Positions 11,104 through 61,355 of a DNA stretch of 64,000 nucleotides are shown here, piece after piece (position 1 is the stretch's first letter; the number at the start of each line of letters is the position of its first letter). Location of the stretch: the NCBI RefSeq assembly GCF_025751555.1, contig NZ_JAOWLB010000007.1:62001-126000 (forward strand), read 5' to 3'. Made by a program: the position numbers and the translations under genes. The notes below the pieces were generated by a model, which worked only from the letters and a program-made list of their open reading frames with translations, searched no databases and was not told the DNA's origin. The DNA comes from Ruegeria aquimaris (lineage in GTDB: Bacteria > Pseudomonadota > Alphaproteobacteria > Rhodobacterales > Rhodobacteraceae).

Positions 11104-11146
11104 TTTCGCCCCAAATACTCCGGGGTCCGGGGCAGCGCCCCGGTCC
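11104..11146 (-). repeat. GGCGCTGCC/CCGGAGTATTT stem-loop repeat, copy A
   Basis: Read on the minus strand: a 7-bp stem CCGGGGC with loop GCT and GCCCCGG (11143-11127), then CCGGAGTATTT (11123-11113). It follows the stop codon of the enoyl-CoA hydratase (11151) by a few bases and lies inside the operon, before the acyl-CoA dehydrogenase start. Three related copies are found at 21.3-21.5 kb and 61.3 kb. Confidence 0.75.
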
Positions 11147-11150
11147 GACC

Positions 11151-11954
11151 TCAATCGCCCATAAACACGGGTTTTTCCTTGGCGACAAAGGCGCGGTAGG
11201 CGCGTTCGAAATCGCCGGTCTGCATGCAGATCGCCTGTGCCTGCGCCTCGGCCTCGATCGCCTGTTCGATCGACATCGACCATTCCTGCGCCAGCATGGT
11301 CTTGGTGATCATATGGCCGAAATTCGGGCCTGCCGCGATCTGCTGGGCCAGTTTGCGGGCCTCATCCTCCAGCGTGTCCGCCGCCACCAGCCGGTTGTGA
11401 AAGCCCCAGGCGGCACCCTCGTCAGCGCTCATCGCGCGTCCGGTGTAGAGCAGTTCCGCCGCGCGACCCTGGCCGATGATCCGGGGAAGGATGGCGCAGG
11501 CGCCCATATCACAGCCAGCCAACCCGACGCGGGTAAACAGAAAGGCCACCTTGGCCTCGGGCGTCGCGATGCGCAGGTCAGAGGCCATGGCGATGATCGC
11601 GCCCGCGCCGACGCAGATGCCGTCGATGGCGGCAATCACCGGTTTGCCGCAATTGATCATCGCCTTGACCAGATCGCCGGTCATTCGGGTGAATTGCAGC
11701 AGCTCCTTCATGTTCATCCGGGTGAGCGGCCCGATGATGTCATGCACATCGCCGCCCGAGCTGAAATTGCCGCCGTTCGAGGCAAAGACTACCGCCTTGA
11801 TGTCGTCATTGTAATGCAGGTCGCGGAACCAGTCGCGCAGCTCGGCATAGCTGTCGAAGGTCAGCGGGTTCTTGCGTTCGGGCCGGTCCAGCGCGATGCG
11901 GGCGATGCCGTCTTCGATGGTGCACAGGAAATGGGTGGTGTCGGCGGCGGTCAT
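11151..11954 (-). CDS. Enoyl-CoA hydratase/isomerase family protein
   Basis: A 267-residue crotonase-fold protein. The oxyanion-hole segments are SSGGDVHDI and the [22 protein letters not shown] stretch. A C-terminal Q-x5-E helix region is followed by FVAKEKPVF. It probably hydrates or isomerises a cyclic enoyl-CoA formed by the acyl-CoA dehydrogenase of the same operon. The ATG at 11954 overlaps the MarR stop by 4 nt. The catalytic glutamate pair of typical hydratases was not located with certainty, so hydratase versus isomerase or ring-opening activity stays open. Confidence 0.9.
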
Positions 11955-12418
11955 GATTTTCCCTCTGTCAGAATGCGGTCCAGCGTTGCCGTGATCGCGC
12001 GGGCCTCGTCAGCGTCGAGCGCGCCCAGCAGATCGTCGACCCAGGCCTCGTGGCGCGCGGCTTGCCGGGCGAATTCCTCTTCGCCCTTGCGGGTCAGGCG
12101 GACCCGGTTGGCGCGGCGGTCGCCCGGCACCGGTTCGCGCAGCACATGGCCATCCTCGACAAGCCGTTCGATGATGCCGGTGACATTGCCGTTCGACACC
12201 TTCAGGAGGCCCGACAGCTCGCTCATCTTCAGCCCGCCCGCGTTGCGGGCCAGCGCGCTCATCACGTCAAACCGCGGCAGGGTCGAGGCGAACTCGGTCC
12301 GCAGGTTCTCGCGCAGGCCGGATTCCACCGTGCGCGTGGTTTTGAGCAGTTTCAGCCAGAGGCGCAGCCGCGCCTTGCTGTCCGGCCCGACATCGGGGCG
12401 GGGGTTGGGTGCGCTCAT
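11951..12418 (-). CDS. MarR family regulator embedded in the aminobenzoyl-CoA operon
   Basis: A 155-residue winged-helix protein. [20 protein letters not shown], then [15 protein letters not shown] (recognition helix) and [12 protein letters not shown] (wing) are typical MarR features. It overlaps both the upstream dehydrogenase and the downstream hydratase genes by 4 nt. MarR proteins in aromatic acid operons commonly act as repressors released by the CoA thioester. By that analogy this one may sense 2-aminobenzoyl-CoA and bind the dyad at 15518-15555. Being inside the operon it would be autoregulated. Confidence 0.92.
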
Positions 12419-13173
12419 ATCTCTCCTCCCGACAGGGCAAGGGCATGGCCGTTCACCGACCGGGCGGCCTCGGAGCAGAGCCAGAGAACCGCGCCCGCCA
12501 CCTCGTCCACCTGGATGAATCGGTCCTGCGGATTGCCCTTGCGCAGCGACTTTGCCGCAGCTTCCGCGCTCAGCCCGGTCTTGTCCACGATGGTGGCGAT
12601 TGAACGTTCCAGCATCGGGGTCTCGATGAAGCCGGGGCAGATCGCGTTTGCGGTCACGCCGGTGCGGCCCAGTTCCACCGCCAGCGCCCGGATCAGGCCC
12701 ACGACCCCGTGTTTTGCGGCGCAATAGCCCGCCACATAGGGATAACCTTTGAGCCCGGCGGTCGAGGCGATGGCGATCAACCGCCCCTCGCCCGCGTTTT
12801 CCATATCCGCCAGCCCGGCCTGAAAGCTGTTGAATACGCCCTTGAGGTTCACATCCAGCATCTGCTGGAATCCTTCGGCGGTCATCTTCCTGAACGGTGT
12901 GCTGTCGGCGGCACCCGCATTGGCGACCACCACGCCCACCGGCCCGTTCAGGTCGCGCGCTTGCCGAAAGGCGGCGCGGACCGCCTGCGGATCGGTCACG
13001 TCGCAGGTGACCCAGCCGATGAACTTGTGCTGTTTGGCCACCTCGCGCAACGGTGCCTCGCGGCGACCCAGCACGGTGACCTTGGCACCGGCATGGGCCA
13101 GCGCCTCGGCAATCGCCGCACCAGTTCCGGTGCCGCCACCGGTGACCACCGCATGGGTGCCTTCCAGCGTCAT
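12415..13173 (-). CDS. Short-chain dehydrogenase/reductase (3-hydroxyacyl-CoA dehydrogenase-like)
   Basis: A 252-residue classical SDR. The cofactor loop reads TGGGTGTG, followed by NAGA and the active-site pattern with Tyr in [11 protein letters not shown] (Y-x3-K). CPGFIETPM follows. It overlaps its neighbours by 4 nt at both ends and follows the monooxygenase/reductase gene. In the aerobic 2-aminobenzoyl-CoA route a dehydrogenase acts on the ring-reduced or hydroxylated CoA intermediate, which is the likely role. NAD is more likely than NADP given the acidic cofactor region, but this is not certain. Confidence 0.9.
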
Positions 13174-15464
13174 GCGCGGATCTCCATCTCGGCGTCACGG
13201 TCGGCCAGGCGCCAGGCCTGATCCCGGCCCGCCAGATAAGGTAGCGGCCAGTCGGCGTGGCGATCACCGATGCGCGCGCCCTCGTGCAGGGTCCAGTAGG
13301 GGTCGGCCAGATGCGGGCGACCGACGCAGATCAGATCGGCCCGGCCCGCCATCAGGATCGAGTTGGCATGGTCGGCCTCATAGATATTGCCCACCGCCAT
13401 GGTGGCGATGCCGGTCTCGTTGCGGATGCGGTCCGAGAACGGGGTCTGGAACATGCGGCCATAGACGGGTTTGGCCTCGACCGAGGTCTGCCCGGCGGAA
13501 ACGTCGATGATATCGGCCCCTGCCGCGTGGAACATCGCCGCGATCTTGACTGCCTCCTCGGGCGTGACACCGGCCTCGTCCACCCAGTCATTGGCCGAAA
13601 TCCGCACCGACATCGGCTTGTCCTCGGGCCATGCGGCCCGCATCGCGGTGAACACTTCCAGCGGGTAGCGCATGCGGTTTTCCAGCGACCCGCCGTAGTC
13701 GTCGCCGCGCGAGTTCGACATCGGCGAGATGAAGGACGAGATCAGATAGCCGTGTGCTGCGTGCAGTTCGATCATGTCGAAACCTGCCCGTTCCGCCATT
13801 TGCGCGGCCGCGACGAACTGATCGCGCACTGCGTCCATATCCGTCCGCGTCATTTCGCGCGGGGTGGCATTGTTGGCGGACCACGGGATGGGCGAGGCCG
13901 AGATCAGGCCCCAGTTTTCCGCCTTCAGGGGCGCGTCCATCGTCTCCCACCCCAGCTGGGTCGAGCCCTTGCGCCCGGAATGACCGATCTGGCAGCAGAT
14001 TTTGGCGCTCGTCTCGCCATGCACGAAGTCGGTCAGCCGCCTCCACGCGGCCTCATGCTCGGGCGCATAGAGGCCCGGACAACCGGGCGTGATGCGGCCT
14101 GTGGGGCTGACGCAGGTCATCTCGGTATAGACCAGGCCCGCGCCACCCTTGGCGCGTTCGCCGTAGTGGATCAGATGCCAGTCGGTCGGGCAGCCATCGA
14201 CGGCCTTGTATTGCGCCATGGGCGAGACCACGATGCGGTTCTTCAACTCCATGCCGCGCAGGCGGAAGGGGGCGAACATCGGCGCGCGCACGGGTTCGGC
14301 TGCAGCGCCCGCACGGGTCTGAAACCATTGTTCGGCCGAGCGCAGCCAGTCGGCATCGCGCAGGCGCAGGTTCTCGTGACTGATCCGCTGGCTGCGGGTC
14401 AGCAGCGAATAGTTGAACTGCACCGGGTCCATGTCCAGATAGCGTTCCACCTGTTCGAACCACTCCAGCGAGTTGCGTGCCGCCGATTGCAGGCGCAGCA
14501 CCTCGAGCCGGCGTTCCTCCTGATAGCGCTCGAAGGCACTTTCCATCGTCGGTTCGGAATGCAGATAGGTGGCCAGCGAAATGGCGCTGTCAAAGGCCAG
14601 GCGCGAGCCCGAGCCGATCGAGAAATGCGCGGTGGCCGCCGCATCGCCCATCAGCACCACGTTTTCATGGTGCCATTTCTCGCACAGAACGCGGGGAAAG
14701 TTGATCCAGACCGCCGAGCCGCGCAGATGGCTGGCATTCGACATGAGCTTGTGGCCGCCCAGATGCGCGGCAAAGATGCGCTCGCAGGTGGCGACGCTCT
14801 CTTCCTTGGACATATGCTCGAATCCCCAGGCGTCCCAGGTCTCCTGGCTGCATTCCACGATCACCGTCGCGGTGTCCTCGTCGAACTGATAAGCATGCAC
14901 CCACATCCAGCCATGTTCGGTCTTTTCAAAGATGAAGGTGAAGGCGTCGTCGAATTTCTGATGGGTGCCAAGCCAGATGAACTTGCACTGGCGGGTGTCG
15001 ATATCGGGTTTGAAATGCGCGGCCAGATCGCTGCGCACGCGCGAGTTCAGCCCGTCGCAGGCCACCACCAGATCGTATTCCGCCTGATACTCGGCAATGG
15101 GGCGTGCTTCGGTCTGGAATTGCAGATCGACGCCCAACTCGCGGGCGCGGTCTTGAAGCAGGAGCAGCATCGCCTTGCGCCCGATCCCGGCAAAACCGTG
15201 CCCGCCCGAGACGGTGCGCACCCCGTCATGCACCACCGCGATATCGTCCCAATAGGCAAAGTTCGAGCGGATCGTTTCGGCGCTCTTGGGGTCGTTGGCG
15301 GCCAGGTTTTCCAGCGCGTCATCGCTCAGCACCACGCCCCAGCCGAATGTATCGTCGCCCTTGTTGCGCTCGATCACCGTGACCTGATGCGAAGGGTCGC
15401 GCAGCTTCATCGAAATGGCGAAATAGAGCCCCGCCGGACCGCCACCCAGACATGCGACACGCAT
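13170..15464 (-). CDS. 2-aminobenzoyl-CoA monooxygenase/reductase (bifunctional FAD monooxygenase + OYE-type reductase)
   Basis: A 764-residue fusion. Residues 1 to about 390 form a flavin monooxygenase ([11 protein letters not shown] at the N-terminus, [14 protein letters not shown] later). Residues from about 400 form an Old Yellow Enzyme-like FMN reductase ([35 protein letters not shown]). This architecture is that of the Azoarcus 2-aminobenzoyl-CoA monooxygenase/reductase and the related salicylyl-CoA 5-hydroxylase. It hydroxylates and then reduces the aromatic ring of anthraniloyl-CoA. The neighbouring CoA ligase and divergent kyn genes support anthranilate. It is the first gene of the minus-strand operon. 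Confidence 0.92.
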
Positions 15465-15517
15465 TGCATCCTCCCTCGCAAGATACGCTGATTGAGGATG
15501 AGGATACGGGGATTCGG

Positions 15518-15555
15518 ATATATTTCAAGCCTAAACCTTTAAGCTTGAAATATAA
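15518..15555. promoter_or_regulatory. Long dyad between the aminobenzoyl-CoA operon and kynBA (candidate MarR operator)
   Basis: ATATTTCAAGC (15520-15530) and GCTTGAAATAT (15543-15553) are perfect 11-bp arms with a 12-nt centre; the flanks at 15518-15519 and 15554-15555 extend the symmetry with one mismatch. It lies in the 133-nt divergent space between the monooxygenase/reductase and kynB. The AT-rich arms stand out from the GC-rich surroundings. The likely ligand is the MarR protein encoded in the operon. Confidence 0.7.
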
Positions 15556-15597
15556 CGGAGCGGCATCTACGCTATCCGCAAATCGGGAGGGTCTGCG

Positions 15598-16374
15598 ATG
15601 ATCGACTGGGATGATGCCTTTGACAATTCCAGCTATGTGCCGGGGTCGGACAAGCTGGCCGCTGCCTGGGGCGCTGCGGCGGCGGCCTGGCGCGACAGTC
15701 AGGGCGGGACGCTTGACATTTCCTATGCTCCGGGCCCGCGTAACCGGCTGGACCTGTTCCGCCCCGACGGCGCGGCGAAGGGCCTCGTGGTATTTGTGCA
15801 TGGCGGCTATTGGCAAAAGCTCGACAAGAGCTTCTGGTCGCATTTCGCCGCCGGGCCGCTCAGCCGGGGCTGGGCGCTGGCGGTGCCCTCTTACACGTTG
15901 GCGCCCGAGGCGCGGCTGGGCCAGATGGTCGAGGAAGTTCGAGCATCGATAGAAGAGGCAGCGCGTCACGTCGCGGGACCGGTGCGGCTGGCGGGCCATT
16001 CCGCCGGTGGCCATCTGGTGGCCCGCATGGCCTGTACCGACGGGCCGCTGCCTGACCGGCTGGACCGGGTGATCAGTATCAGCGGTATCCACGATCTGCG
16101 CCCGCTGCTGGCCACCCGGATGAACGAGGTGCTGCATCTGGACGCGGCAGAGGCCGAGGCCGAAAGCCCCGCGCTTCTGCCCCGGCGCGCGGGCCTGTCG
16201 GTCACCTGCTGGGTCGGCGCCGATGAGCGGCCCGAATTGGTGCGCCAGACCCGGCTCTTGTCCGAGGCGTGGGGCGTGCCCAACGTCTTTGCCGCCGGGC
16301 ACGAGCATTTCTCGGTCGTCGAAGAGTTGGGGCGCCCCGGCTCCGCCCTGCTTTCAGAACTTCTCAAGGATTAA
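15598..16374 (+). CDS. kynB: Arylformamidase (kynurenine formamidase), alpha/beta-hydrolase type
   Basis: A 258-residue alpha/beta hydrolase. The HGGYW motif at residues 68-72 and the nucleophile elbow GHSAGG (Ser135) are those of the eukaryote-like arylformamidases. A C-terminal histidine is in GHEHFSV. It converts N-formylkynurenine to kynurenine and formate. It sits 4 nt before tryptophan 2,3-dioxygenase, which makes the substrate. It diverges from the anthraniloyl-CoA operon, so kynureninase, not found here, would link the two halves. It is not a member of the metal-dependent bacterial KynB family, although the reaction is the same. Confidence 0.88.
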   Translation: MIDWDDAFDNSSYVPGSDKLAAAWGAAAAAWRDSQGGTLDISYAPGPRNRLDLFRPDGAAKGLVVFVHGGYWQKLDKSFWSHFAAGPLSRGWALAVPSYTLAPEARLGQMVEEVRASIEEAARHVAGPVRLAGHSAGGHLVARMACTDGPLPDRLDRVISISGIHDLRPLLATRMNEVLHLDAAEAEAESPALLPRRAGLSVTCWVGADERPELVRQTRLLSEAWGVPNVFAAGHEHFSVVEELGRPGSALLSELLKD

Positions 16375-16378
16375 CCCG

Positions 16379-17215
16379 ATGTCCCAAGCCTATGACCCCA
16401 GCCAGGAAGGCGCCAAGATGTCCTATGCCAAGGACATGAGCTATGGCGACTATCTGCATATGGACGACCTGCTCGCCACGCATCACCTGCAATCGGATGC
16501 GCATGACGAGTTGCTGTTCATCATCCAGCACCAGACTAGCGAATTGTGGATGCGGCTTGTTCTGCACGAACTGACCGCAGCGCGGCGGTTGCTGATGTCT
16601 GGCGGCGATTTCCGCCCGGCGTTCAAGATGCTGACCCGGGTTGCGCGCATTTTCGACCAGCTCAATTCGGCGTGGGACGTGCTGCGCACGATGACACCCA
16701 GCGATTACACCACGTTCCGCAATGCGCTTGGCAATTCCTCGGGTTTTCAATCGCACCAGTACCGGTTGATCGAATATGTTCTGGGCAACCGGAATATCTC
16801 TTTGATGAAGGTGCACGAGCATCGGCCGGAGCTGCATGCCATGCTGGCCGAGGAATTGCAGCGGCCCTCGCTTTATCATGTGGCCCTGGACGCCCTGTCG
16901 GCAAAGACCGGAGTGGCGATCTCGCCCGAAGCGCGCCGGATGGATAATCCGCATAGCGCGGATGCCGATGTGCAGCGCGCATGGAAGATGGTTTACGAGA
17001 ACCCGGCCAAGTTCTGGGATCTCTATGAGTTGGCCGAAAAACTGGTCGATCTCGAGGATTACTTCCGCCGCTGGCGCTTCAACCATGTCACCACGGTTGA
17101 GCGGGTCATCGGGTTCAAGCGGGGCACCGGCGGAACTTCGGGTGTGCAGTACCTGCGGCGGATGCTCGAAGTCGAGCTGTTCCCCGAACTTTGGCATCTT
17201 CGCACCGAACTCTGA
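16379..17215 (+). CDS. kynA: Tryptophan 2,3-dioxygenase
   Basis: A 278-residue heme enzyme that opens the indole ring of L-tryptophan to N-formylkynurenine. It shows the family signatures MSYGDYLHMDDLL, FIIQHQTSELWMRL (substrate-side), GNSSGFQSHQYR, and RWRFNHVTTVERVIGFKRGTGGTSGV carrying the proximal heme histidine. It lies 4 nt behind kynB and starts at ATG 16379. Together they give the first two steps of tryptophan breakdown. Downstream, AATTCGCCC and GGGCGAAATT around 17241-17273 can pair imperfectly and may mark the transcript end. Confidence 0.97.
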   Translation: MSQAYDPSQEGAKMSYAKDMSYGDYLHMDDLLATHHLQSDAHDELLFIIQHQTSELWMRLVLHELTAARRLLMSGGDFRPAFKMLTRVARIFDQLNSAWDVLRTMTPSDYTTFRNALGNSSGFQSHQYRLIEYVLGNRNISLMKVHEHRPELHAMLAEELQRPSLYHVALDALSAKTGVAISPEARRMDNPHSADADVQRAWKMVYENPAKFWDLYELAEKLVDLEDYFRRWRFNHVTTVERVIGFKRGTGGTSGVQYLRRMLEVELFPELWHLRTEL

Positions 17216-17397
17216 GCCAGAATCTGCGAAAAAGTTGTCGAATTCGCCCGGCATGGTCTGGGCGAAATTGCCATGGCGTTCAAACACGACATATCATGAT
17301 TGTTTTCTGACTTATCCGGACATGGACGATGCCGGTCAGGTGGTCTATCGTCGCCGCGAACCCAATGGCTCAGGCCCCACAGGCAAGAGGTAGAACA

Positions 17398-18279
17398 ATG
17401 AATTATCACAGCCCGGCGAGCTTTGCCGAGGCGTCGCGGATCGCCGCTGACGCGTCGGGCATCACCCGGTTTCTGGCGGGGGGCACCGATGTGCTGGTGC
17501 AGTTGCGCGCCGATATTGTCACCCCGGACACGCTGATCGACATCAAGAAGATCCCGGGAACCGGCGCAATCACGCGCAACGCGGACGGCAGCTGGACCCT
17601 GGGCGTGGCCGTGCCGGGTGCGGAGCTGGGCGAACATGCCGGGCTGGTGGCCGATTGGCCCGGCGTGGTCGAGGCGATGAACCTTGTGGGGTCGACCCAG
17701 GTGCAGGGCCGCGCGACATTGACGGGCAACCTCTGCAACGGCTCGCCCGCTGCGGATTCCGTCCCGGCCATGGTCGCCGCGTCCATGACCGCAACCGTGA
17801 CCGGACCCAACGGTGATCGTACTGTCGCAGTCAGGGATATTCCGACCGGGCCGGGCAAAACATCGCTGGCAAAGGGCGAGCTTGTTTCGGCACTGCATAT
17901 TCCCCCGCGGGGCGAAAACGCAGGCGACGCCTATCTGCGCTTCATTCCGCGCAGTGAAATGGATATCGCCGTGGTGGGTTGTGCCGTCAACCTGAGGCTT
18001 GACGGGGATACCGTTGTCGAGGCCCGCGTGTCCCTGGGCGCTGTTGCGCCGACCGTCTTGCTGGTCGAAGACGCCGCTGCGGCGATCATCGGTTCCACGC
18101 TGGACGACGCCGCGCTGGACCGGCTGGCCGCCGCAGCCTCGGCCGCCTGCAAGCCGATCAACGACAAACGCGGCACAATCGAATTCCGGACCGAAGTCGC
18201 GGGCGTGCTGGCCAAGCGTGTCGCGCGCATCGCCTATGCCCGGGCCAAGGGCGAAATCATCAAGGGGCACCACGGATGA
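17398..18279 (+). CDS. Molybdenum hydroxylase, FAD-binding medium subunit
   Basis: A 293-residue subunit of the xanthine dehydrogenase/CO dehydrogenase family. The two FAD-contact segments LAGGTDVLVQ and LTGNLCNGSPAADS are present. It passes electrons from the iron-sulphur subunit to the acceptor through FAD. AGAGG lies upstream of the start at 17398. It overlaps the next gene by 4 nt, forming the order medium, small, large subunit. The substrate is unknown; the context offers no diagnostic ring or CoA gene apart from kyn genes 180 nt upstream. Confidence 0.92.
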   Translation: MNYHSPASFAEASRIAADASGITRFLAGGTDVLVQLRADIVTPDTLIDIKKIPGTGAITRNADGSWTLGVAVPGAELGEHAGLVADWPGVVEAMNLVGSTQVQGRATLTGNLCNGSPAADSVPAMVAASMTATVTGPNGDRTVAVRDIPTGPGKTSLAKGELVSALHIPPRGENAGDAYLRFIPRSEMDIAVVGCAVNLRLDGDTVVEARVSLGAVAPTVLLVEDAAAAIIGSTLDDAALDRLAAAASAACKPINDKRGTIEFRTEVAGVLAKRVARIAYARAKGEIIKGHHG

Positions 18280-18755
18280 GCAAGATCCACGTATCCACCA
18301 CCGTCAACGGCGATGCGGTCGAGTATCTCTGCGACCCGCGCGAAACCCTGCTCGACTGTCTGCGCGACAAGCTCAGCCTGACCGGGGCCAAGGAAGGCTG
18401 CGGCACTGGCGATTGCGGTGCCTGCTCGGTGACGCTCGACGGGCGGCTGGTCTGCTCCTGCCTGGTGCTTGGGGTCGAGGCCGAAGGCAAGGAAATTGGC
18501 ACCGTCGAAGGCATCGCCGAGGGCGATGTGCTGCATCCGCTGCAACAGAAATTCATCGACTATGCCGCACTGCAATGCGGCATCTGCACCCCCGGCATCC
18601 TAGTCGCCGCCAAGGCACTGTTGGAGCAGAACCCGGACCCGACCGAAGAAGAAGTCCGGTTCTGGCTGGCCGGCAACCTGTGCCGCTGCACGGGATATGA
18701 CAAGATCATCCGCGCCGTGATGGACACGGCCAAGGATATGAGGGAGGCGGTATAA
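18276..18755 (+). CDS. Molybdenum hydroxylase, 2x[2Fe-2S] small subunit
   Basis: A 159-residue iron-sulphur subunit. The plant-type ferredoxin cluster ligands lie in [12 protein letters not shown] plus a later cysteine. The helical domain cluster ligands lie in QCGICTPG and CRCTGY. It links the molybdenum site to FAD. It starts by a 4-nt overlap with the FAD subunit and ends at the first base of the large-subunit start. The length is normal for the family. Confidence 0.95.
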
Positions 18756-21309: not shown

Positions 21310-21332
21310 CGCCGCTGACGCGGCGATTTTTT
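21310..21332 (+). terminator. Intrinsic terminator of the molybdenum hydroxylase operon
   Basis: A stem of CGCCGC (21310-21315) and GCGGCG (21320-21325) with a TGAC loop is followed by A and six Ts (21327-21332). It lies 56 nt behind the stop of the carrier gene. Confidence 0.75.
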
Positions 21333-21378
21333 GCGAGGCGCTGCCTCGCGCTCCGGAGTATTTTGAACCAAAAAGAAG
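21333..21378 (+). repeat. GGCGCTGCC/CCGGAGTATTT stem-loop repeat, copy B1
   Basis: A 7-bp stem GCGAGGC (21333-21339) with loop GCT and GCCTCGC (21343-21349), then CCGGAGTATTT (21353-21363) and an A-rich AAAAAGAAG (21370-21378). It is in sense orientation behind the molybdenum hydroxylase operon and right after its terminator. The stem differs from copy A at several paired positions while pairing is kept. Confidence 0.75.
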
Positions 21379-21390
21379 CAAAGGGCCCCT

Positions 21391-21453
21391 GCTCTTTCCT
21401 CTTGCCGAAAATATCCCGGGGGAGTCACCAAAGGTGACGGGGGCAGCGCCCCC
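21391..21453 (-). repeat. GGCGCTGCC/CCGGAGTATTT stem-loop repeat, copy B2 (variant)
   Basis: Read on the minus strand: GGGGGC-GCT-GCCCCC (21453-21439), a second 6-bp hairpin GTCACC-TTT-GGTGAC (21438-21424), then CCGGGATATTTT (21419-21408) in place of CCGGAGTATTT, and a purine run AAGAGGAAAGAG. It is in sense orientation behind the racemase-family gene (stop at 21465), so B1 and B2 face each other in one convergent gap. Confidence 0.65.
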
Positions 21454-21464: not shown

Positions 21465-22205
21465 TTATCCGCGCGGATCGTCCAGGATCAGTTCGAACCG
21501 GCGTGGCATCAGGCCAGACTGGAACCACGTGACCATTGAATAGATTGAATAAATTGGCAGGCCGGTGCGTTTGCGCAGATCGGCGGCATAGGGCACCATG
21601 TTGGTGCATTCCAGAACGATGGCGCCCGCATCGGGTTCCTGTGCCATGATCTCGTCGGCGGCGTCCAGCATGTCCAGACGGCAGGCGGCGAAGTCGATTG
21701 CGGGCGCGTCGCCCAGAATGTCGCGGGTGAAGACGCGGCCCTTATCGGTGCCGTAGACCGGCGTGTCGAGTGGTACTCCGGCCGCCGCAAGATGCGCATG
21801 GGTCAGCGTGGCCTTGGAGATCGTCAGGATCACGACCTTCTTTCCGGGCGGTAAAAGCGCTTGCACCATAGGGACTTGCATCAGCGACGAGGTCGCCACC
21901 GGAACCCCGAGAGCGGCCCGCAATTCGTCCTGCACTAGCGCCAGAAAGCCGCAGTTGGTGGTGATCCCGTCCGCGCCGGTGGCCACCAGATCGCGACCTG
22001 CCTCGACAAAGGTGTCGAGGAGCGCGCGGGGATCGCCGCGCACCACCCGATCAGGCGAGGCGCCGCGCACTACGCGGTAGTGAACGGGGAAGGGCCAGGT
22101 CATGGCGTTGCCCATGTCGCCATGGATGCGCGGGAAGCGGGTTTCCAGCATCAGGATGCCGACTGCGGCCCCGAAAACCGTCTTTCCACCATTTTGTACT
22201 GACAT
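21465..22205 (-). CDS. Aspartate/glutamate racemase-family protein
   Basis: A 246-residue protein of the Asp/Glu/hydantoin racemase superfamily. The two active-site cysteines are expected in TNCGFL and LECTNM, both present. The family also contains maleate isomerase and arylmalonate decarboxylase, so racemase is not assured. I placed the start at ATG 22205, with GAGGG upstream and 7 nt behind the GntR stop. They form one unit under the GntR operator at 22967. The convergent space behind it carries repeat copies B1/B2. Confidence 0.85.
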   Translation of the reverse strand: MSVQNGGKTVFGAAVGILMLETRFPRIHGDMGNAMTWPFPVHYRVVRGASPDRVVRGDPRALLDTFVEAGRDLVATGADGITTNCGFLALVQDELRAALGVPVATSSLMQVPMVQALLPPGKKVVILTISKATLTHAHLAAAGVPLDTPVYGTDKGRVFTRDILGDAPAIDFAACRLDMLDAADEIMAQEPDAGAIVLECTNMVPYAADLRKRTGLPIYSIYSMVTWFQSGLMPRRFELILDDPRG

Positions 22206-53351: not shown

Positions 53352-53363
53352 GGCCGCGCCCGG

Positions 53364-54154: not shown

Positions 54155-54742
54155 GTGTCTGATTTCAATCTCAAGAAAGTGGCGGCCGCGATTGTAGCCG
54201 CCCTTGTGGTATCCGGAGCTGCTGTCGCGCCGGCCGCCGCGCAAACCGGGAATACGGGTACGCAGCGCACCATCGTCGGCGAGCGCTATGTGCCCACGAT
54301 CTGGGTGGACCCCGACGGATGCGAACACTGGGTGATGGACGACGGCGCCGAAGGCTACATGACCCCGCATGTCTACCCCGATGGCAAGCCGGTTTGTCGG
54401 CGTGGACAGTTGTGCGGGATGATGCCGACGGATCAGTTCTTTGCCACTGACAAGCACTACATCAATGCGGCGGGCAAGGCGCGCCTGCAGGAGTTCTTCC
54501 GCAAGACGATGCCGGGTACACGCTATTTCGTGATCGCAGGGCATACCGATAGCCGCGCCTCGGACGAGTATAACATCCGCCTCTCGGAGCGGCGGGCGAA
54601 CGCCGTTGCTCAGGTCGCCCGTTCGGTGGGTGCGCGGCTCGGCGACATTCGCGCCTATGGCGAGCGCGATCCACGCGTCCCGAACACCAGCGCCGCCAAC
54701 ATGGCGCAAAACCGTCGCGTCGAAATCTATTGCATCCGCTAA
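54155..54742 (+). CDS. OmpA-family outer-membrane/peptidoglycan-binding protein
   Basis: A 195-residue exported protein with a signal peptide ending at about APAAAQ. A middle module IWVDPDGCEHWVMDDGAEGY and DGKPVC is followed by a C-terminal OmpA domain with the peptidoglycan-contact residues in IAGHTDSRASDEYNIRLSERRANAV. It starts at GTG 54155, with GAGGA 9 nt upstream (54141-54145). It is probably anchored to peptidoglycan in the periplasm. The middle module recurs in the next gene, 12 nt downstream. Confidence 0.9.
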   Translation: MSDFNLKKVAAAIVAALVVSGAAVAPAAAQTGNTGTQRTIVGERYVPTIWVDPDGCEHWVMDDGAEGYMTPHVYPDGKPVCRRGQLCGMMPTDQFFATDKHYINAAGKARLQEFFRKTMPGTRYFVIAGHTDSRASDEYNIRLSERRANAVAQVARSVGARLGDIRAYGERDPRVPNTSAANMAQNRRVEIYCIR

Positions 54743-54754
54743 GGAGAGTTGGTG

Positions 54755-55060
54755 ATGACAATTTTCAAGGGATTTGCCGCTCTGACTCTGGCAATCGCGG
54801 TTTCGGCCTGTGCGCCGGCCACGGACAAGACCCGCGACCGTAACATTCTGGATGGCAAAAGCGGGGATCTGTCGCAATTGACCGCCGGTATCTGGGTCGA
54901 TCCGGCAGGCTGCGAACACTGGATCATCGACGACGGGGTCGAGGGCTATGCCGACCTGCGGCGGACACCGGATGGCAAGCCGGTCTGCAACAGCGAACTG
55001 CCGCGCAGCGTGGCGACAGGGCCGTTCAAGTCCGGGTCGACCTTCAGCGATCCGATCTGA
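54755..55060 (+). CDS. Lipoprotein with the CEHW/DGKPVC module
   Basis: A 101-residue lipoprotein. MTIFKGFAALTLAIAVSAC contains a lipobox (VSAC), so Cys19 should be lipidated. The mature part contains GIWVDPAGCEHWIIDDGVEGY and DGKPVC, nearly the same as the module in the OmpA protein before it. The paired genes probably arose by module duplication and may work together at the cell envelope. AAGGAG stands 8 nt before ATG 54755. It has a strong terminator behind it. Confidence 0.85.
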   Translation: MTIFKGFAALTLAIAVSACAPATDKTRDRNILDGKSGDLSQLTAGIWVDPAGCEHWIIDDGVEGYADLRRTPDGKPVCNSELPRSVATGPFKSGSTFSDPI

Positions 55061-55080
55061 TCTGAACACCACCTGAACAA

Positions 55081-55106
55081 AGACCGCCCTCGGGGCGGTC
55101 TTTTTT
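55081..55106 (+). terminator. Intrinsic terminator behind the OmpA/lipoprotein operon
   Basis: AGACCGCCC (55081-55089) pairs with GGGCGGTCT (55093-55101) over a TCG loop, followed by a T run (55101-55106). This is the clearest intrinsic terminator in the window. Confidence 0.92.
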
Positions 55107-55198
55107 GTTTCAGATTGGTGAAAACTTTGCGGTCATGCTTGCACCACCCACAACATCTTGGCTACGCTGAAGGCAGGACTTCGACAACAGGAGAGCGG

Positions 55199-56212
55199 AT
55201 GGCCCTCGGTGCCCTGACCACACCGCAAGACGGCAGCGTCCAGACGGACCTGCACCTGGAATTCCCCGACAATCGGCTTTTGATAGACTTGTGCGGCGAA
55301 CACGACCGTCACCTGGTGCTTGTTGAACAGGTGCTGGGGGTGCAGATCGTCCGGCGCGGAAATCATCTGTCGATTCTCGGCGGCGACCCCGAGACCCGCG
55401 CCCGCGCGGCGGAGATTCTCGAGGCGCTCTACGATCGGTTGCAATCCGGCCGCCCTGTCGAGGGGGCCGATGTGGACCGCGAACTGCGCATGGGCCGTGC
55501 CACCGAAGAGCCTGACCCGCGCGATGGCGACCAGCTGGAAATGTTCCTGGGCGGACGGTTCGAGATCAAGACCCGCAAGAAACCCGTCGAACCGCGCACC
55601 GAGGCGCAAAAGGCCTATGTCAAATCGCTGTTCGAAAACGAACTCGCCTTTGGCATCGGCCCGGCTGGCACCGGCAAGACCTATCTGGCCGTGGCTGTGG
55701 GCGTCACCATGTTCATCAACGGTCTGGTCGACCGTATCATACTCAGCCGTCCCGCGGTCGAGGCGGGGGAGAAGCTGGGCTATCTGCCGGGCGACATGAA
55801 GGACAAGGTCGACCCCTATATGCAGCCGCTCTATGACGCGCTGAACGATTTCCTGCCGGGCAAGCAGGTGGCCAAGCTGATTGAGGAGAAGAAGATCGAG
55901 ATTGCGCCGCTGGCCTTCATGCGCGGGCGCACGCTGGCCAATGCCTTTGTGGTGCTGGACGAGGCGCAGAACGCCACCACCATGCAGATGAAGATGTTCC
56001 TGACCCGCTTGGGCGAGGGCAGCCGCATGGTGATCACCGGCGACCGCAGCCAGGTCGACCTGCCGCGCGGGGTGATGTCGGGTCTGGCCGATGCCGAACG
56101 GCTGCTGAAACCCGTGCCGGGCATCAGCTTCAACTACTTCACCTCCAAGGATGTCGTCCGGCACCCGCTTGTCGCCGCCATCATCGAAGCGTATGAGGCC
56201 GACGCAGGTTGA
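55199..56212 (+). CDS. phoH: PhoH family ATPase
   Basis: A 337-residue PhoH/PhoL-type protein. The N-terminal part is followed by an ATPase domain with Walker A GPAGTGKT (154-161) and Walker B VVLDEAQN. PhoH-like proteins next to ybeY are thought to act in RNA metabolism. The start at ATG 55199 has CAGGAGAG upstream; longer frames are not needed. It is the first gene of the phoH-ybeY-corC-lnt operon. Confidence 0.95.
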   Translation: MALGALTTPQDGSVQTDLHLEFPDNRLLIDLCGEHDRHLVLVEQVLGVQIVRRGNHLSILGGDPETRARAAEILEALYDRLQSGRPVEGADVDRELRMGRATEEPDPRDGDQLEMFLGGRFEIKTRKKPVEPRTEAQKAYVKSLFENELAFGIGPAGTGKTYLAVAVGVTMFINGLVDRIILSRPAVEAGEKLGYLPGDMKDKVDPYMQPLYDALNDFLPGKQVAKLIEEKKIEIAPLAFMRGRTLANAFVVLDEAQNATTMQMKMFLTRLGEGSRMVITGDRSQVDLPRGVMSGLADAERLLKPVPGISFNYFTSKDVVRHPLVAAIIEAYEADAG

Positions 56213-56260
56213 TCCGGCTGGCCGAATGGCGGGTCGTGACCTGAGAAAGCCGGGACCGCC

Positions 56261-56758
56261 ATGACACTTGATATCACTCTCCAAGATCCGCGTTGGGTCG
56301 TCTTGCCGCCCCTGGCGCAGCGGGCCGCCGACGCGGCCCTGCGGCATTTTGGCCTGGACCCCGAGGAGTGCGAGATCAGCCTGCTTGGCTGTGACGATGC
56401 CCGGATATCGGAACTCAATGCCGAATTCCGCGGCAAGCCCGTGCCGACAAATGTGCTGAGCTGGCCATCCGAAGATCTCGCCGCCGACGCGCCGGGCGGC
56501 ACACCTCTGGCGCCCGAGCCGGATTTTACCGGCATGATTCCCATGGGCGACATCGCGATCGCCTACGACACTTGCCAATGCGAGGCAGAGGCGGCGGGCA
56601 AACCCATGGCCGATCATGTCACGCATTTGATCGTTCACGGGGTGTTACATTTGTTGGGTTATGACCATATCCGTGACGAAGACGCCACGCTGATGGAAGG
56701 TTTGGAGGCGGAGATACTTGGCAATCTGGGCCTCGATAACCCATATTATACGGACTGA
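56261..56758 (+). CDS. ybeY: Endoribonuclease YbeY
   Basis: A 165-residue metal-dependent RNase. The zinc ligands His126, His130 and His136 lie in HGVLHLLGYDH. It acts in 16S rRNA 3'-end maturation and ribosome quality control. It lies 48 nt behind phoH and before the CBS-domain gene, the usual order. Confidence 0.97.
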   Translation: MTLDITLQDPRWVVLPPLAQRAADAALRHFGLDPEECEISLLGCDDARISELNAEFRGKPVPTNVLSWPSEDLAADAPGGTPLAPEPDFTGMIPMGDIAIAYDTCQCEAEAAGKPMADHVTHLIVHGVLHLLGYDHIRDEDATLMEGLEAEILGNLGLDNPYYTD

Positions 56759-56791
56759 AGGGCCAAGAGGCCCCGGATTGGATTAGGATTA

Positions 56792-57679
56792 ATGGGCGAC
56801 ATAGAAGGCAGTTCTAGCGCAGCGCATAGCGCGCAACCGGATACTCCCGGCGAAACGAACGCAGAAAGATCAGGATTTTTTACCCGCATCATGGATGCGT
56901 TTTCCCCTGGTGACGGCCAGGAACAGCCTGAGCTGCCCGGCACATCGGTTGCGCCTGCGGTCACGCCCGGGCTGTTGAACCTGCGGCGCATGCGGGTCGA
57001 GGACGTGGCCATCCCCACTGCGGACATCATTGCCGTGCCGGTGACCATATCCAAGGAAGAGCTGGTCCAGGTGTTCCGCGACAGCGGGCTGACCCGTATC
57101 CCGGTTTACGAGACCACGCTCGATACCCCGCTCGGCTTTGTGCACCTCAAGGACCTGGCGCTGACACACGGGTTCAACGGCGATTCGGCGGTGTTCGATC
57201 TGGCCTCCATGCTGCGGCCGCTGCTGTTCGTTCCGCCGTCGATGCCCATCGGTGTCCTGCTGACCAAGATGCAGACCGAGCGGCGCCATATGGCGCTGGT
57301 GATCGACGAATATGGCGGGGTCGACGGTCTCTTGACCATCGAGGACCTGATCGAACAGGTGGTGGGCGAGATCGAGGACGAGCACGATACCGACGAGGCG
57401 CAGACCTGGATAAAGGAACGCCCCGGCTGCTACATCGCCCAGGCCAAGACGCCGCTGGAGGATTTCGAGGCCGAGATTGGCCGCTCTTTGACCAGCCATG
57501 AGGACGTGGACGAAGAGGAAATCGACACACTGGGCGGCCTGGTCTTCATGCTGTCCGGCCGGATTCCGGCCCGGGGCGAAGTTGTCCTGCATCCCGAGGG
57601 CGTCGAATTCGAAGTCATGGATGCCGATCCGCGCCGGATCAAACGGCTGCGCGTCATGATACCCGAAGCCGCAGCATGA
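56792..57679 (+). CDS. CorC/HlyC-type CBS-domain protein
   Basis: A 295-residue protein without membrane spans. A CBS-domain pair has VEDVAIPTADIIAV, RIPVYETTLDTPLGFVHLKDL and MALVIDEYGGVDGLLTIEDLIEQVVGEI, and a C-terminal transporter-associated CorC_HlyC domain (IDTLGGLVFMLSGRIPARGEVV). It is the usual partner of ybeY and lnt. Roles in magnesium/cobalt homeostasis are reported in other bacteria. Its stop overlaps the lnt start by 4 nt. Confidence 0.94.
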   Translation: MGDIEGSSSAAHSAQPDTPGETNAERSGFFTRIMDAFSPGDGQEQPELPGTSVAPAVTPGLLNLRRMRVEDVAIPTADIIAVPVTISKEELVQVFRDSGLTRIPVYETTLDTPLGFVHLKDLALTHGFNGDSAVFDLASMLRPLLFVPPSMPIGVLLTKMQTERRHMALVIDEYGGVDGLLTIEDLIEQVVGEIEDEHDTDEAQTWIKERPGCYIAQAKTPLEDFEAEIGRSLTSHEDVDEEEIDTLGGLVFMLSGRIPARGEVVLHPEGVEFEVMDADPRRIKRLRVMIPEAAA

Positions 57680-59193
57680 CCTTTTTGCCCGGCTGGCGTT
57701 TGTGGCAGCGCATGCTGCTTGCTGCTGCCCTCGGCGTCATCGCGGCTTTGGGTCTGGCGCCGACCTCGATCTGGGTGGCCACCGTCAGCGCGCTCCTGGC
57801 GGTGCCGGCCCTGTTTCAGTCGGCGCGCTCACGGACCGAGGCGACCCTGACCGGGTGGGCCTTTGCCACCGGCTATTTCGGCTATGCGCTTCTCTGGATT
57901 GTCGAGCCGTTTCTGATCGACATCGCGCGGCACGGCTGGATGGCGCCCTTTGCGCTGATCTTTATGGCCGGGGGGCTGGCATTGTTCTGGGCGGCGGGTT
58001 TCGCGCTGGCGGCCATGCCCTGGCGCACCGCCGAGCGGCGGACCTGGTTGCTGATCCTGTCGCTGGGGATCGCAGAGTTCGCACGCGGCTATGTTCTGAC
58101 GGGTTTTCCCTGGGCGGGTCTGGCGCAGGTCTGGGTGGAAACCGACGCGGCGCTGCTCTTGGCCTGGATCGGTCCCAACGGGCTGGCGCTCTTGACCCTG
58201 CTTGCCGTCTTGCCCCCGGGATCGGCACTGGCACGCGGTATGGGCGGGACTGCGCTGTTGCTGCGCTGCATTCCGGCCGTCGCCTTTGGAGTGGCAATCC
58301 TGGCGGTGGACGCGATGCGGCCCGAGATCGAAAGCACGGGAAAACAGGTGCGGCTGGTGCAGCCCAACGCGCCACAACACCAGAAATGGGATCCCGACTG
58401 GTACCCCGTCTTCATGGCCCGCCAGCTCCGCTTCACCGGCGAAGGGCCGCGGCCCGATCTGGTGGTCTGGCCCGAATCCGCGCTGCCCTACTGGCTTGAC
58501 GGGGCGGGTCCGGTGCTGGAAGAGATCGCCACAGCCGCACGCGGCGCACCGGTGGTTATCGGCGCGAACCGGTCCGAGGGGCCGCGTATCTATAACTCGC
58601 TCGCGGTGGTGACAGAGGGCGGCATCGCCGATCCGGTCTATGACAAGCACCACCTGGTTCCGTTTGGCGAATACGTCCCCTTTGGCGATGTGCTGGAATC
58701 CTTCGGCATCTCCGGCTTTGCCGCCCGCAGCGGGCAAGGGTTCAGCCCCGGTCCGGGGCCGGACGTGCTCAGGATACCCGGGATCGGTGTCGCGGTGCCG
58801 CTGATCTGCTACGAGGCGGTGTTTCCCCAGGAGGTGAACGCGGTGCCGGGTCGGCCGGATCTGTTGTTGCAGGCGACCAACGACGCCTGGTTCGGAACCT
58901 GGTCGGGACCCTATCAGCACCTGGCGCAGGCCCGGATGCGGGCGGTGGAACAGGGGCTGCCGATGGTTCGCGTCGCCAATACCGGCGTCTCGGCGATGAT
59001 CGACCCGCTGGGCCGGATCACAGCGGGCCTGCCGCTTAATCAGGCGGGGTACGTCGATGCCGAACTGCCCCTGCCGCTGCAACCGACGGTCTACAGCCAG
59101 ACCGGCGATCTGCCGCTGCTGCTGGCGATGCTTATCCTGTTCCTTGGTGCGGCAAGGATACAGGCGCGTCCCGAACCGGCAAATAGCGATTGA
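57676..59193 (+). CDS. lnt: Apolipoprotein N-acyltransferase
   Basis: A 505-residue inner-membrane enzyme with about seven N-terminal membrane spans, then a periplasmic nitrilase-like domain. The catalytic triad is Glu267 ([10 protein letters not shown]), Lys324 ([16 protein letters not shown]) and Cys378 (LICYEAVFP). It adds the third acyl chain to lipoproteins. It overlaps the CBS gene by 4 nt. The space behind it holds the metK riboswitch. Confidence 0.96.
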
Positions 59194-59229
59194 CCTCAAC
59201 AAATACGGGGCGTATCCCGGCTCAGACCT

Positions 59230-59275
59230 GCCACAACGGCTTCCTGGCGTGGCGCGGGTATTCATTAATGGAGCA
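59230..59275 (+). promoter_or_regulatory. SAM/SAH riboswitch of metK
   Basis: The stretch begins GCCACAACGGCTTCCTGGCG and continues to GTGGC. Stem P1 is GCCAC (59230-59234) with GTGGC (59249-59253). GCTTCC (59239-59244) can pair with GGAGC (59270-59274), the pseudoknot that closes the pocket. GGAG is also the Shine-Dalgarno of metK, so ligand binding would hide it. This matches the SAM/SAH riboswitch class of Rhodobacterales. The ATG of metK lies 7 nt on. Confidence 0.92.
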
Positions 59276-59281
59276 CTTTGC

Positions 59282-60463
59282 ATGTCCCGACAGAACTACA
59301 TCTTCACTTCGGAATCCGTTTCCGAAGGGCACCCGGACAAGGTGTGCGACCGGATTTCCGACGCCGTCCTTGACGCATTCCTGACCGAAGAGCCCGAGGC
59401 GCGGGTTGCCTGTGAAACCTTTGCCACCACCAATCGCGTCGTGATCGGCGGCGAAGTCGGCCTGTCGAACAAGGACAAGCTGCGCGAATACATGGGCCGC
59501 ATCGACGAGATCGCGCGCGCCTGTATCAAGGATATCGGTTACGAGCAGGACAAGTTTCACCACGAGACTGTGGAGATCACCAACCTGCTGCACGAACAGT
59601 CGGCCCATATCGCTCAGGGTGTCGATGCCTCGGGCGAAAAGGACGAAGGCGCTGGCGACCAGGGCATCATGTTCGGCTACGCCACCACCGAGACGCCCGC
59701 GCTGATGCCGGCCCCGATCCAGTACAGCCATGCCATCCTGCGCCGTCTGGCCGAGGTGCGCAAGAACGGCACCGAACCGGCGCTTGGCCCGGATGCCAAA
59801 TCCCAGCTTTCGGTGATCTATCGCGACGGCCAGCCGGTGGGCGTGTCCTCGATCGTGCTGTCGACCCAGCACCTGGACGAGGCGCTTACCAGCGCCGACA
59901 TCCGCGCCATTGTCGAGCCCTATATCCGCGAGGTTCTGCCCGAAGGCTGGATCGGCGCCAACACCGTCTGGCACGTGAACCCGACCGGCAAGTTCGTCAT
60001 CGGCGGGCCTGACGGCGACGCTGGCCTGACCGGGCGCAAGATCATCGTCGACACCTATGGTGGTGCCGCGCCTCATGGCGGCGGTGCTTTCTCGGGCAAG
60101 GATCCGACCAAGGTGGACCGCTCGGCCGCCTATGCCGCGCGCTACCTTGCCAAGAACGTGGTCGCCGCCGGCATGGCCGAGAAATGCACCATCCAGCTGA
60201 GCTATGCCATCGGCGTGTCGGCGCCGCTGTCGATCTATGCCGATACCCACGGCACCGGCACGGTTTCCGATGCCGAAATCGAGGCGGCCATCCCCAAGGT
60301 CATGAACCTGACCCCGCGCGGCATCCGCACCCATCTGAGCCTGAACAAGCCGATCTACCAGCGCACCGCGGCGTACGGCCATTTCGGCCGCGACCCCGAA
60401 GCCGACGGCGGCTTCAGCTGGGAGCGCACCGACTTGGTCGAGGCGCTCAAGAAAGCGGTCTGA
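59282..60463 (+). CDS. metK: S-adenosylmethionine synthetase
   Basis: A 393-residue enzyme with [28 protein letters not shown] and [19 protein letters not shown]. It makes SAM from methionine and ATP. Its Shine-Dalgarno GGAG is part of the SAM/SAH riboswitch pseudoknot, so translation should be shut off when SAM or SAH is plentiful. The start is ATG 59282. A strong hairpin follows. Confidence 0.98.
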
Positions 60464-60489
60464 TCCGGAAAGCGGCAAGAGATACGGGA

Positions 60490-60514
60490 GGGGCGCGGAA
60501 AACCGCGCCCCTTT
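60490..60514 (+). terminator. Intrinsic terminator of metK
   Basis: GGGGCGCGG (60490-60498) and CCGCGCCCC (60503-60511) form a perfect 9-bp stem with an AAAA loop, followed by TTT. It separates metK from trmB. Confidence 0.82.
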
Positions 60515-60575
60515 CGCAATTATCGGTCGGGGTCCCGCCTTGCACCCGGCGCGCGGTCGCAGTAACCCCACGGTC

Positions 60576-61289
60576 ATGAGCAAAACCATCCCAGACCGCC
60601 CGCGCCGCAACTTTTACGGTCGCATCAAGGGTAAGACCCTGAAACCGAACCAGCGGGCCTATCTGGACGAGGACCTGACGCCCCTGTCGCCCGGCCCGGT
60701 GAGCTGGCAGGACAACCCCGCGCGCGCACCACTGGATCTCGACGCGCTCTTTGGCGGGCGCGAGACATGGCTCGAGATCGGGTTCGGCGGCGGCGAGCAT
60801 CTGGTGCATCAGGCGGCCTCGAACCCCGGCATCGGCATCATCGGCGCGGAACCCTTCATAAACGGGGTGGCGATGCTGTTGGGCAAGATCCGCGCAGCGG
60901 GCGCCGACAATGTGCGGGTTCATCCGGGCGATGTGCGCGACCTCTTCGATGTACTGCCGCCGCAGAGCATCTCGCGCGCTTTCCTGCTCTATCCTGATCC
61001 CTGGCCCAAGAAACGGCATCACCGCCGCCGGTTCGTGACGCCGGACCATCTGGAACCGCTGGCGCGGGTGCTGAAACCGGGCGCAATCTTTCGCGTGGCC
61101 ACCGACATCCCCGACTATGTCCGCCAGACGCTGGAGGAAGTGCCGCGCGCCGGGTTCGAATGGCTGGCCGAAGCGCCCGCCGACTGGCGTTTGCCCTGGG
61201 GTGACTGGATCTCGACCCGCTATGAGCAAAAGGCGCTGCGCGAGGGTCGGGTGCCGCATTACCTGACCTTTCGCCGGTTGCAGGGCTGA
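60576..61289 (+). CDS. trmB: tRNA (guanine-N7-)-methyltransferase
   Basis: A 237-residue SAM-dependent methyltransferase. The SAM-binding LEIGFGGGEHL and the TrmB motif LLYPDPWPKKRHHRRRF are present, and the C-terminal region is complete. It modifies G46 of tRNA to m7G. The start is ATG 60576; upstream in-frame starts run towards the metK terminator. Repeat copy C lies directly behind its stop. Confidence 0.95.
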   Translation: MSKTIPDRPRRNFYGRIKGKTLKPNQRAYLDEDLTPLSPGPVSWQDNPARAPLDLDALFGGRETWLEIGFGGGEHLVHQAASNPGIGIIGAEPFINGVAMLLGKIRAAGADNVRVHPGDVRDLFDVLPPQSISRAFLLYPDPWPKKRHHRRRFVTPDHLEPLARVLKPGAIFRVATDIPDYVRQTLEEVPRAGFEWLAEAPADWRLPWGDWISTRYEQKALREGRVPHYLTFRRLQG

Positions 61290-61293
61290 GGCA

Positions 61294-61355
61294 GGGGGCG
61301 CTGCCCCCCGCGCCTGCGGCGCTCCCCCCGGAGTATTTCCCGCGGAATGAAGAGG
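61294..61355 (+). repeat. GGCGCTGCC/CCGGAGTATTT stem-loop repeat, copy C
   Basis: GGGGGC (61294-61299), loop GCT, GCCCCC (61303-61308), then a second hairpin GCGCC-TGC-GGCGC (61310-61322), CCGGAGTATTT (61328-61338) and a purine run with GAAGAGG. It starts 4 nt behind the trmB stop, in sense orientation. It is part of the four-copy family. Confidence 0.75.

Follow-up and report, generated by a model that had tools for sequence, protein, structure and literature searches.

Introduction

Hairpin-stabilised transcription pauses combine a hairpin, placed at a fixed spacing from the 3′ end of the RNA, with a contribution of the downstream DNA. Repetitive extragenic palindromes (REPs), as presented in the accessible part of PMC3733652, are found near gene 3′ ends, with convergent copies mostly less than 20 bp from both ends, as well as inside genes and as dimers; their CGTC families are commonest in alpha-proteobacteria and seem to lack a dedicated transposase. 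Rickettsia palindromic elements (RPEs) are described, in the accessible part of PMC2229807, as 105–146 bp long and located in frame inside conserved protein genes. Here, we describe a hairpin-bearing repeat present in four copies in a 64,000-nucleotide stretch of Ruegeria aquimaris (contig NZ_JAOWLB010000007.1, positions 62,001 to 126,000; the whole stretch is referred to as the window), together with its relatives in the 5.04 Mb genome (G000), in four congeners of our collection, including Ruegeria sp. PrR005 (G103), and in a wider sample of the order.

The element was shown to be a modular repeat family of REP-like character, dispersed in the genomes of Ruegeria and related Rhodobacteraceae, located at gene 3′ ends and made of two kinds of modules: a variable, replaceable hairpin unit, and a constrained asymmetric motif in which GAGTATTT is followed by a spacer and a purine-rich tail. 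It occurs in many members of a bacterial group of major ecological importance, and it offers a concrete signal whose natural variants (swapped tails and lost hairpins) occur at defined sites, including sites in the model strain R. pomeroyi DSS-3. No description of the element was found in the text available from our open-access searches on the motif and on Rhodobacterales repeats, and it was unmentioned in the accessible parts of PMC6238624, PMC7866481, PMC4809877, PMC5107571, PMC8625941, PMC12306157, PMC3733652, PMC3305630, and PMC2229807.

Family Size and Structure of the Element

The four copies reported by an earlier sequence-only reading (11104–11146, 21333–21378, 21391–21453, and 61294–61355) are present in the window and are real members of a large dispersed family. 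The exact 11-mer CCGGAGTATTT, found three times in the window, occurred 84 times in the genome (50 + 34), versus 0 for the reversed pattern; all 84 contexts were inspected, and one (L013) was a chance match within a gene. The core-plus-tail pattern TATTTN{6,9}ARWGAA, whose matches overlap the 84 exact copies, gave 153 genome matches versus 5 in the control, and the pattern of a third tail type, ATATTTN{3,4}GCAAGAGGAA, as in copy 3 of the window, gave 21 versus 0. From the sets of 153 and 21, the family total was about 170 copies. When up to two mismatches to CCGGAGTATTT were allowed, the window yielded 10 matches for 8.6 expected, so that the exact ones alone are meaningful.

The unit is about 45–75 bp long, mostly intergenic, and has an oriented core. 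It consists, in order, of one or two hairpins, the core GAGTATTT, a 3-base spacer and a purine-rich tail. Its constant part is the asymmetric core (GGGATATTT in the third type), not the hairpin. The sequence-only reading had correctly described a hairpin with a GCT loop and retained pairing, followed by CCGGAGTATTT in copies 1, 2, and 4 and by CCGGGATATTTT in copy 3; it had missed the second hairpin, the spacer and conserved tail after TATTT, and the other hairpin classes. On the basis of how far the first stem lies from the core, two hairpins were assigned to 51 of the 84 exact copies and one to 30, while 3 were unparsed.

The first stem was near-constant (GGGGGC-GCT-GCCCCC) and, as it varies little, carries little covariation information. 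The second stem exhibited 31 distinct 5′ arms in 51 copies (e.g., GTCGCGC, CAAAATTC, or TTGGCC) and at least 4 pairs in each of them, as parsed by a script that itself seeks pairing. Covariation was calculated on the 34 out of 51 double-hairpin copies that were easily aligned (17 were excluded). Stem bases changed while pairing was kept: 94.1% of the cells were paired, versus 83.6% in shuffles and 48–69% in slid controls; 7 out of 13 pairs were doubly changed (7 out of 7 in the second stem); and the covariation score was 0.260 versus 0.100 in shuffles. None of the 500 shuffles was as high on any of these three measures. A measure of further pair types was not above shuffles (261 out of 500). 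In the proposal of a selected RNA structure, the retained pairing is thus supported; the unpaired core and tail are the most conserved parts, and some cores have no shared hairpin. Selection on RNA structure is one reading among others, and gene conversion or template switching could also preserve the pairing of a palindrome.

Three hairpin classes, i (ending in CCGGAG), ii (ending in GCCTCCGGCGGGAG), and iii (without the shared hairpins, often ending in TGAG), all led into GAGTATTT. The tails of Ruegeria were of three types, namely T1 (GCGAAATGAAG, with variants), T2 (ACCAGAAAGAAGC), and T3 (GCAAGAGGAAAG), and all six pairings of the three hairpin classes with T1 or T2 were present. In the spacer, the first position was A in 3 out of 122 copies, the second was any base, and the third was a purine in 113 out of 122. 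A hairpin of dG ≤ −8 was located just upstream of 105 out of 127 cores, compared with 9–23 for three control stretches taken from these loci. A hairpin of dG ≤ −4 preceded 119 cores; its stem ended 13–19 bases before the last T in 80 of them, and at 29–34 bases in 29 of the remaining 39, which are probably double-hairpin copies whose first stem scored strongest. Rfam gave no match at the element, either in the window (gathering scores) or in five loci (E up to 1). A match to the Rfam ffh sRNA family (RF01793) was observed about 1.7 kb from an element copy (L052, 5190–5241, + strand).

Outside the genome analysed, CCGGAGTATTT reached at least 10 copies in 21 out of 121 genomes of the order sample (controls up to 6). 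The pattern TATTTN{4,6}ARRTGAA had 122 and 138 matches in two further genomes (G020 and G023), versus 0 for the control, and in four other genera the same core was followed by the tails CCAAGATGAAG, GCAAGATGAAG, GACAGAAGAAAC, or AACAGAAGAAG. Stretches similar over 56–78% of the query were found in 15 plasmid records from Leisingera, Paracoccus, Ruegeria, and four other genera. Three tandem copies, 118 bases apart, were observed in another genus of the family (L188–L190; G044:C39, 107025–107271). A phage origin was rejected, since one 82-base query had no match among 50,697 phage records. Three of the 78 fetched stretches (L290, L318, and L330, from unrelated metagenome assemblies) appeared to be chance matches and are in none of the counts given here.

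Position Relative to Genes and Facing Pairs

Genes were called with our own codon-usage gene finder in loci of the genome with 127 cores in total; most of these loci were chosen because they contain copies, so that they are not a random sample. Sixty-eight cores lay in convergent gaps and 4 in divergent ones; of the codirectional cores, 34 were sense and 16 antisense. The remaining 5 were inside a gene call; two of these were checked, and correspond to xdhA and xdhB. Convergent gaps represented 28 out of 200 gaps of at least 20 bases, versus 68 out of 122 for the cores (binomial p = 5e-27, a value that assumes independent copies, which facing pairs are not). The location behind stop codons, first noted in the window, was confirmed across the genome copies: the distance from the same-strand stop codon to CCGGAG was 26–60 bases in 52 out of 66, and TATTT was always at least 15 bases from the convergent stop codon. 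The statement that copies all lie in the sense direction of the gene was wrong as made, given the antisense copies and the two copies inside xdhA and xdhB. Sense orientation is automatic in convergent gaps, so orientation is informative in codirectional gaps only, where the sense to antisense ratio was 34:16 (about 2:1, binomial p = 0.015).

The idea that the element is the default terminator of the genome was rejected: in a 364-kb sample with 47 convergent junctions (all gap lengths, some overlapping), the pattern was found at 2, plus one decayed copy recognised by eye. A Chi-like polarity was also discarded, as the strands appeared mixed along one long contig, judged by eye only.

Copies 2 and 3 of the window, which had been reported to face each other, form such a pair, with 45 bases between their TATTT motifs. 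Across all loci analysed, 29 facing pairs were found, several of them mutual orthologs; their TATTT motifs were 32–50 bases apart, with 43–50 bases in 27 out of 29 and a mode of 45. No shared sequence was seen by eye between the tails.

RNA polymerase covers about 14 bases of RNA, holds a 9-base hybrid, and contacts some 15–18 bases of downstream duplex. Because hairpin, core and tail together equal one stopped polymerase, and 43–50 bases approximate two head-on polymerases, our leading reading is that the element may be a 3′-end transcript signal, i.e., a polymerase-sized stop or pause with a protective 3′ hairpin; we would put its chance slightly below even. The hairpin would sit immediately beyond the RNA exit channel, GGAGUAUUU (nine bases) would form the RNA-DNA hybrid, and the spacer and tail would be the downstream duplex, so that the whole would span one elongating polymerase. 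The enzyme would pause or stop at UAUUU, leaving a hairpin-protected 3′ end, and the 43–50 base spacing of facing pairs would let two head-on polymerases stop without collision. In xdhA and xdhB, which are translated, hairpin formation would be prevented by ribosomes, so that the copies would be tolerated. Such a footprint, if true, is relevant to the part played by downstream DNA in stopping RNA polymerase and to the way in which convergent genes avoid collision.

That facing pairs are spaced so narrowly, although no shared sequence was apparent between the tails, would also suit a DNA-level site, in which the 22-base GAGTATTT-N3-tail would be bound as a duplex by a protein (a topoisomerase, a nucleoid protein, or a roadblock) at the ends of genes, where supercoils accumulate through convergent transcription, and the hairpin would be secondary and exchangeable. 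The occurrence of both orientations, the conservation of the antisense xdhA copy, and the persistence of core and tail without the element's hairpin (the 11104 site of the window and L056, both in PrR005, and class iii cores) are consistent with such a site; however, stem covariation, the clustered hairpin-to-core distance and the sense bias would need another reason, and the xdhB copy was no more conserved in PrR005 than its gene (4/49 versus 118/2331 changes). We regard this explanation as unlikely.

Conservation and Change Between Ruegeria Genomes

In PrR005, an exact-core partner was identified at the orthologous place for 61 of the 84 copies (56 by both flanks, 5 by one). Twenty-one of the other 22 sites (L013 excluded) were also located, the missing one being L007. 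By eye, these 21 sites comprised 16 diverged copies (L065 nearly lost), 2 sites where core and tail were kept and the hairpin was missing (L056 and copy 1 of the window, at 11104), and 3 without the element, whose surroundings aligned poorly (copy 4 of the window, at 61294, L001, and L042). No clean insertion site was seen among the sites compared.

Divergence was calculated for the 50 out of 61 ortholog pairs in which tail type and offset agreed. Changes affected 14 out of 550 bases in the tail, 27 out of 164 in the spacer, and 137 out of 700 in the next 14 bases; divergence was roughly six-fold lower in the tails than in the spacer, a contrast to which sorting by known tails contributes somewhat by lowering the tail figure. 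Tail type differed in 4 out of 61 pairs, with three clear T1/T2 swaps, and at L041 the flank was identical right after the swapped tail. Moreover, the trmB-aroA end of the window aligned with the megaplasmid of R. pomeroyi DSS-3, and its copy carried a T1 variant in the window versus T2 in that strain. Overall, the element has the appearance of a marker of gene ends, with parts that continue to be swapped and rebuilt.

Whole tails swapped at orthologous sites and hairpins replaced or lost would be expected of a selfish or neutral palindromic repeat of the REP or RPE kind, spread enzymatically, surviving where it is least harmful (behind stop codons and in protein linkers), and homogenised by gene conversion. 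The placement of REPs is alike, in convergent gaps, inside genes and as dimers (accessible part of PMC3733652), and the in-frame copies described below, with tandem growth at one of them and a rate of change close to that of the gene at the other, point the same way. However, sites were kept in PrR005 (61 exact out of 84, plus 16 diverged by eye), and the tail was more conserved than the spacer within one copy, unlike wholesale copying. Moreover, no PF01797 transposase was found in the five Ruegeria genomes, and no target-site duplication was noticed, although no systematic search was made. We regard this selfish or neutral reading as rather improbable.

Copies Inside xdhA and xdhB

Two copies lie in frame in protein genes (L046, 3309–7021, G000:C33), one in xdhA (antisense) and one in xdhB (sense). 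The XdhA and XdhB proteins match the xanthine dehydrogenase of R. capsulatus (PDB 1jro and 2w3r) almost over their full length, and the element copies fall in poorly matching linkers, which are of similar length in R. capsulatus. Short xdhB linkers were found in Paroceanicella and Azospirillum, and R. marina also has a shorter, dissimilar one; in three other relatives the linker is long, though different. The short, unlike linker of R. marina and the linker of similar length in R. capsulatus suggest replacement rather than clean insertion.

The xdhA copy was identical at 57 out of 57 bases in PrR005 and also in R. marina, while third positions of xdhA outside the copy differed at 59 and 98 out of 443, respectively. 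In R. pomeroyi, this copy had three changes: two exchanged one pair on both sides (G-C to A-T), and one was in the loop. There, in the xdhA linker (strain SZCCDBG043, L320), a tandem repeat comes after the hairpin part of the element. The xdhB copy had 4 changes out of 49 bases in PrR005 and 2 out of 49 in R. pomeroyi, versus 118 and 115 out of 2331 for the gene; it thus changed at about the rate of its gene and showed no extra constraint.

Evidence For and Against the Proposed Stop or Pause Signal

For the polymerase-sized signal, we counted the location at 3′ ends with few divergent copies (4 out of 127), stem covariation, the clustered hairpin-to-core distance, the pair exchange in the xdhA copy of R. 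pomeroyi, tail conservation, the sense bias, the distance of at least 15 bases to the convergent stop codon, and the spacing of facing pairs.

Several observations weigh against it. Sixteen out of 50 codirectional copies were antisense, and with the stricter CCGGAG set the bias was weak, with sense to antisense ratios of 19:11 in G000 and 15:13 in PrR005. The antisense xdhA copy was fully identical in R. marina. No hairpin of dG ≤ −4 was present at 8 out of 127 cores. The hairpins of the four window copies had no T-rich tract after them, and a terminator scan was empty at copies 1 and 4; between copies 2 and 3, the T-rich part of two minus-strand terminator-like sites (described below) was the reverse complement of the copy 2 tail. 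Ordinary terminators, on either strand, were present in 28 out of 68 gaps with an element and in 6 out of 26 convergent gaps without one; gaps with the element were thus not poorer in them. A script comparing pairs between G000 and PrR005 found no clean double change, as the two flagged sites were misaligned at indels; of the 22 broken pairs that it listed, some were indels. Finally, some copies lay 27–32 bases ahead of the next start codon in likely operons. Antisense copies, hairpinless cores, copies ahead of start codons, the conserved antisense xdhA copy, and ordinary terminators are better accommodated by a DNA site or by a REP-like passenger.

Copies near the next start codon would also suit an RNA-processing site, where RNase E would cut the AU-rich GAGUAUUU and the hairpin would protect the new upstream 3′ end, including in operons. 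In R. sphaeroides, RNase E sites have A and U around the cut (accessible part of PMC6238624), and GU/AUU fits this AU-rich preference; however, neither the tail nor the purine at the third spacer position would be needed. We consider a processing site very unlikely.

The Four Copies of the Window

According to Pfam, the flanking genes encode an enoyl-CoA hydratase, a ThiS/MoaD-like protein, a member of the Asp/Glu racemase family, and a TrmB-type methyltransferase, in agreement with each of the gene names given by the sequence-only reading (hydratase, MoaD-like, racemase-family, and trmB).

Copy 1 (− strand) has a single hairpin, CCGGGGC-GCT-GCCCCGG (11127–11143), 7 bases past the stop codon of the enoyl-CoA hydratase gene (11151–11954, −), followed by an exact core CCGGAGTATTT (11113–11123), a spacer (11110–11112), and a T1 tail (GCGAAATGAAG, 11099–11109). 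The start codon of the acyl-CoA dehydrogenase gene is 18 bases beyond. These two genes (9938–11954, −) are separated by 70 bases, with copy 1 in the gap.

Copy 2 (+ strand) also has a single hairpin, GCGAGGC-GCT-GCCTCGC (21333–21349), an exact core CCGGAGTATTT (21353–21363), a spacer (21364–21366), and a T2 tail (ACCAAAAAGAAGC, 21367–21379). Its partner, copy 3 (− strand), starts 11 bases past the stop codon of the racemase-family gene (21465–22205, −) with the hairpin GGGGGC-GCT-GCCCCC (21439–21453), directly followed by a second one, GTCACC-TTT-GGTGAC (21424–21438), as read from the sequence. The variant core GGGATATTT (21409–21417), which fits the third-type pattern, a spacer (21406–21408), and a T3 tail (GCAAGAGGAAAG, 21394–21405) complete it. 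Between 21000 and 21700, the terminator scan detected 3 sites for 0.4 expected. One is an ordinary hairpin-plus-T site (21310–21333, +; stem 21310–21325) immediately before copy 2, and several other GCGAGGC-type copies likewise follow a T-run, as judged by eye; the other two overlap each other (21374–21394, −) in the interval that separates the tails of copies 2 and 3.

Copy 4 (+ strand) begins 4 bases past the stop codon of trmB (60576–61289, +), with the hairpins GGGGGC-GCT-GCCCCC (61294–61308) and GCGCC-TGC-GGCGC (61310–61322), an exact core CCGGAGTATTT (61328–61338), a spacer (61339–61341), and a T1-variant tail (GCGGAATGAAG, 61342–61352). Further upstream, a SAM/SAH riboswitch (RF01727, 56.1 bits) was identified at 59225–59275 (+), just before a gene (59282–60463) that is likely metK, judging by its position and length against the gene order of R. 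pomeroyi DSS-3.

Comparison with Known Systems

The element resembles the REPs of the GTAG and CGTC superfamilies, as far as these are covered by the accessible text, in being a high-copy short palindrome that is extragenic, near 3′ ends, sometimes intragenic, and found as paired copies. It differs from them in that its stems are interchangeable and sometimes missing, while what stays constant is a one-sided, asymmetric and unpaired motif. No unpaired tag of the GTAG or CGTC kind was shared by the copies with two hairpins (51) or with one (30) among the 84; many second stems do contain GTC, which is paired there. No CCA end was seen in the Ruegeria element. A REP-associated transposase (RAYT, Y1, PF01797) was found in 0 out of 5 Ruegeria genomes and in 1 out of the 12 genomes searched (E up to 0.001), a criterion that applies to GTAG REPs only.

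With RPEs, in the part of their description accessible, the element shares the presence of palindromic copies in frame within protein genes, here xdhA and xdhB, where they are more probably replacements than clean insertions; compared with their 105–146 bp, the Ruegeria unit is about 45–75 bp long, mostly intergenic, and has an oriented core.

Like an intrinsic (Rho-independent) terminator, it places a hairpin just past the stop codon, then a short T-containing stretch. However, TATTT replaces the T-tract, there are usually 13–19 bases from the stem to the last T, and a conserved spacer-plus-tail lies beyond. It could, somewhat doubtfully, represent an undescribed class of stop or pause signal, one polymerase long, with a downstream motif as conserved as the RNA part, used singly or in facing pairs at roughly the minimum spacing of two head-on polymerases, and with modules (hairpin, core, and tail) exchanged by conversion among dispersed sites. 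With hairpin-stabilised pauses, the likeness is one of geometry only.

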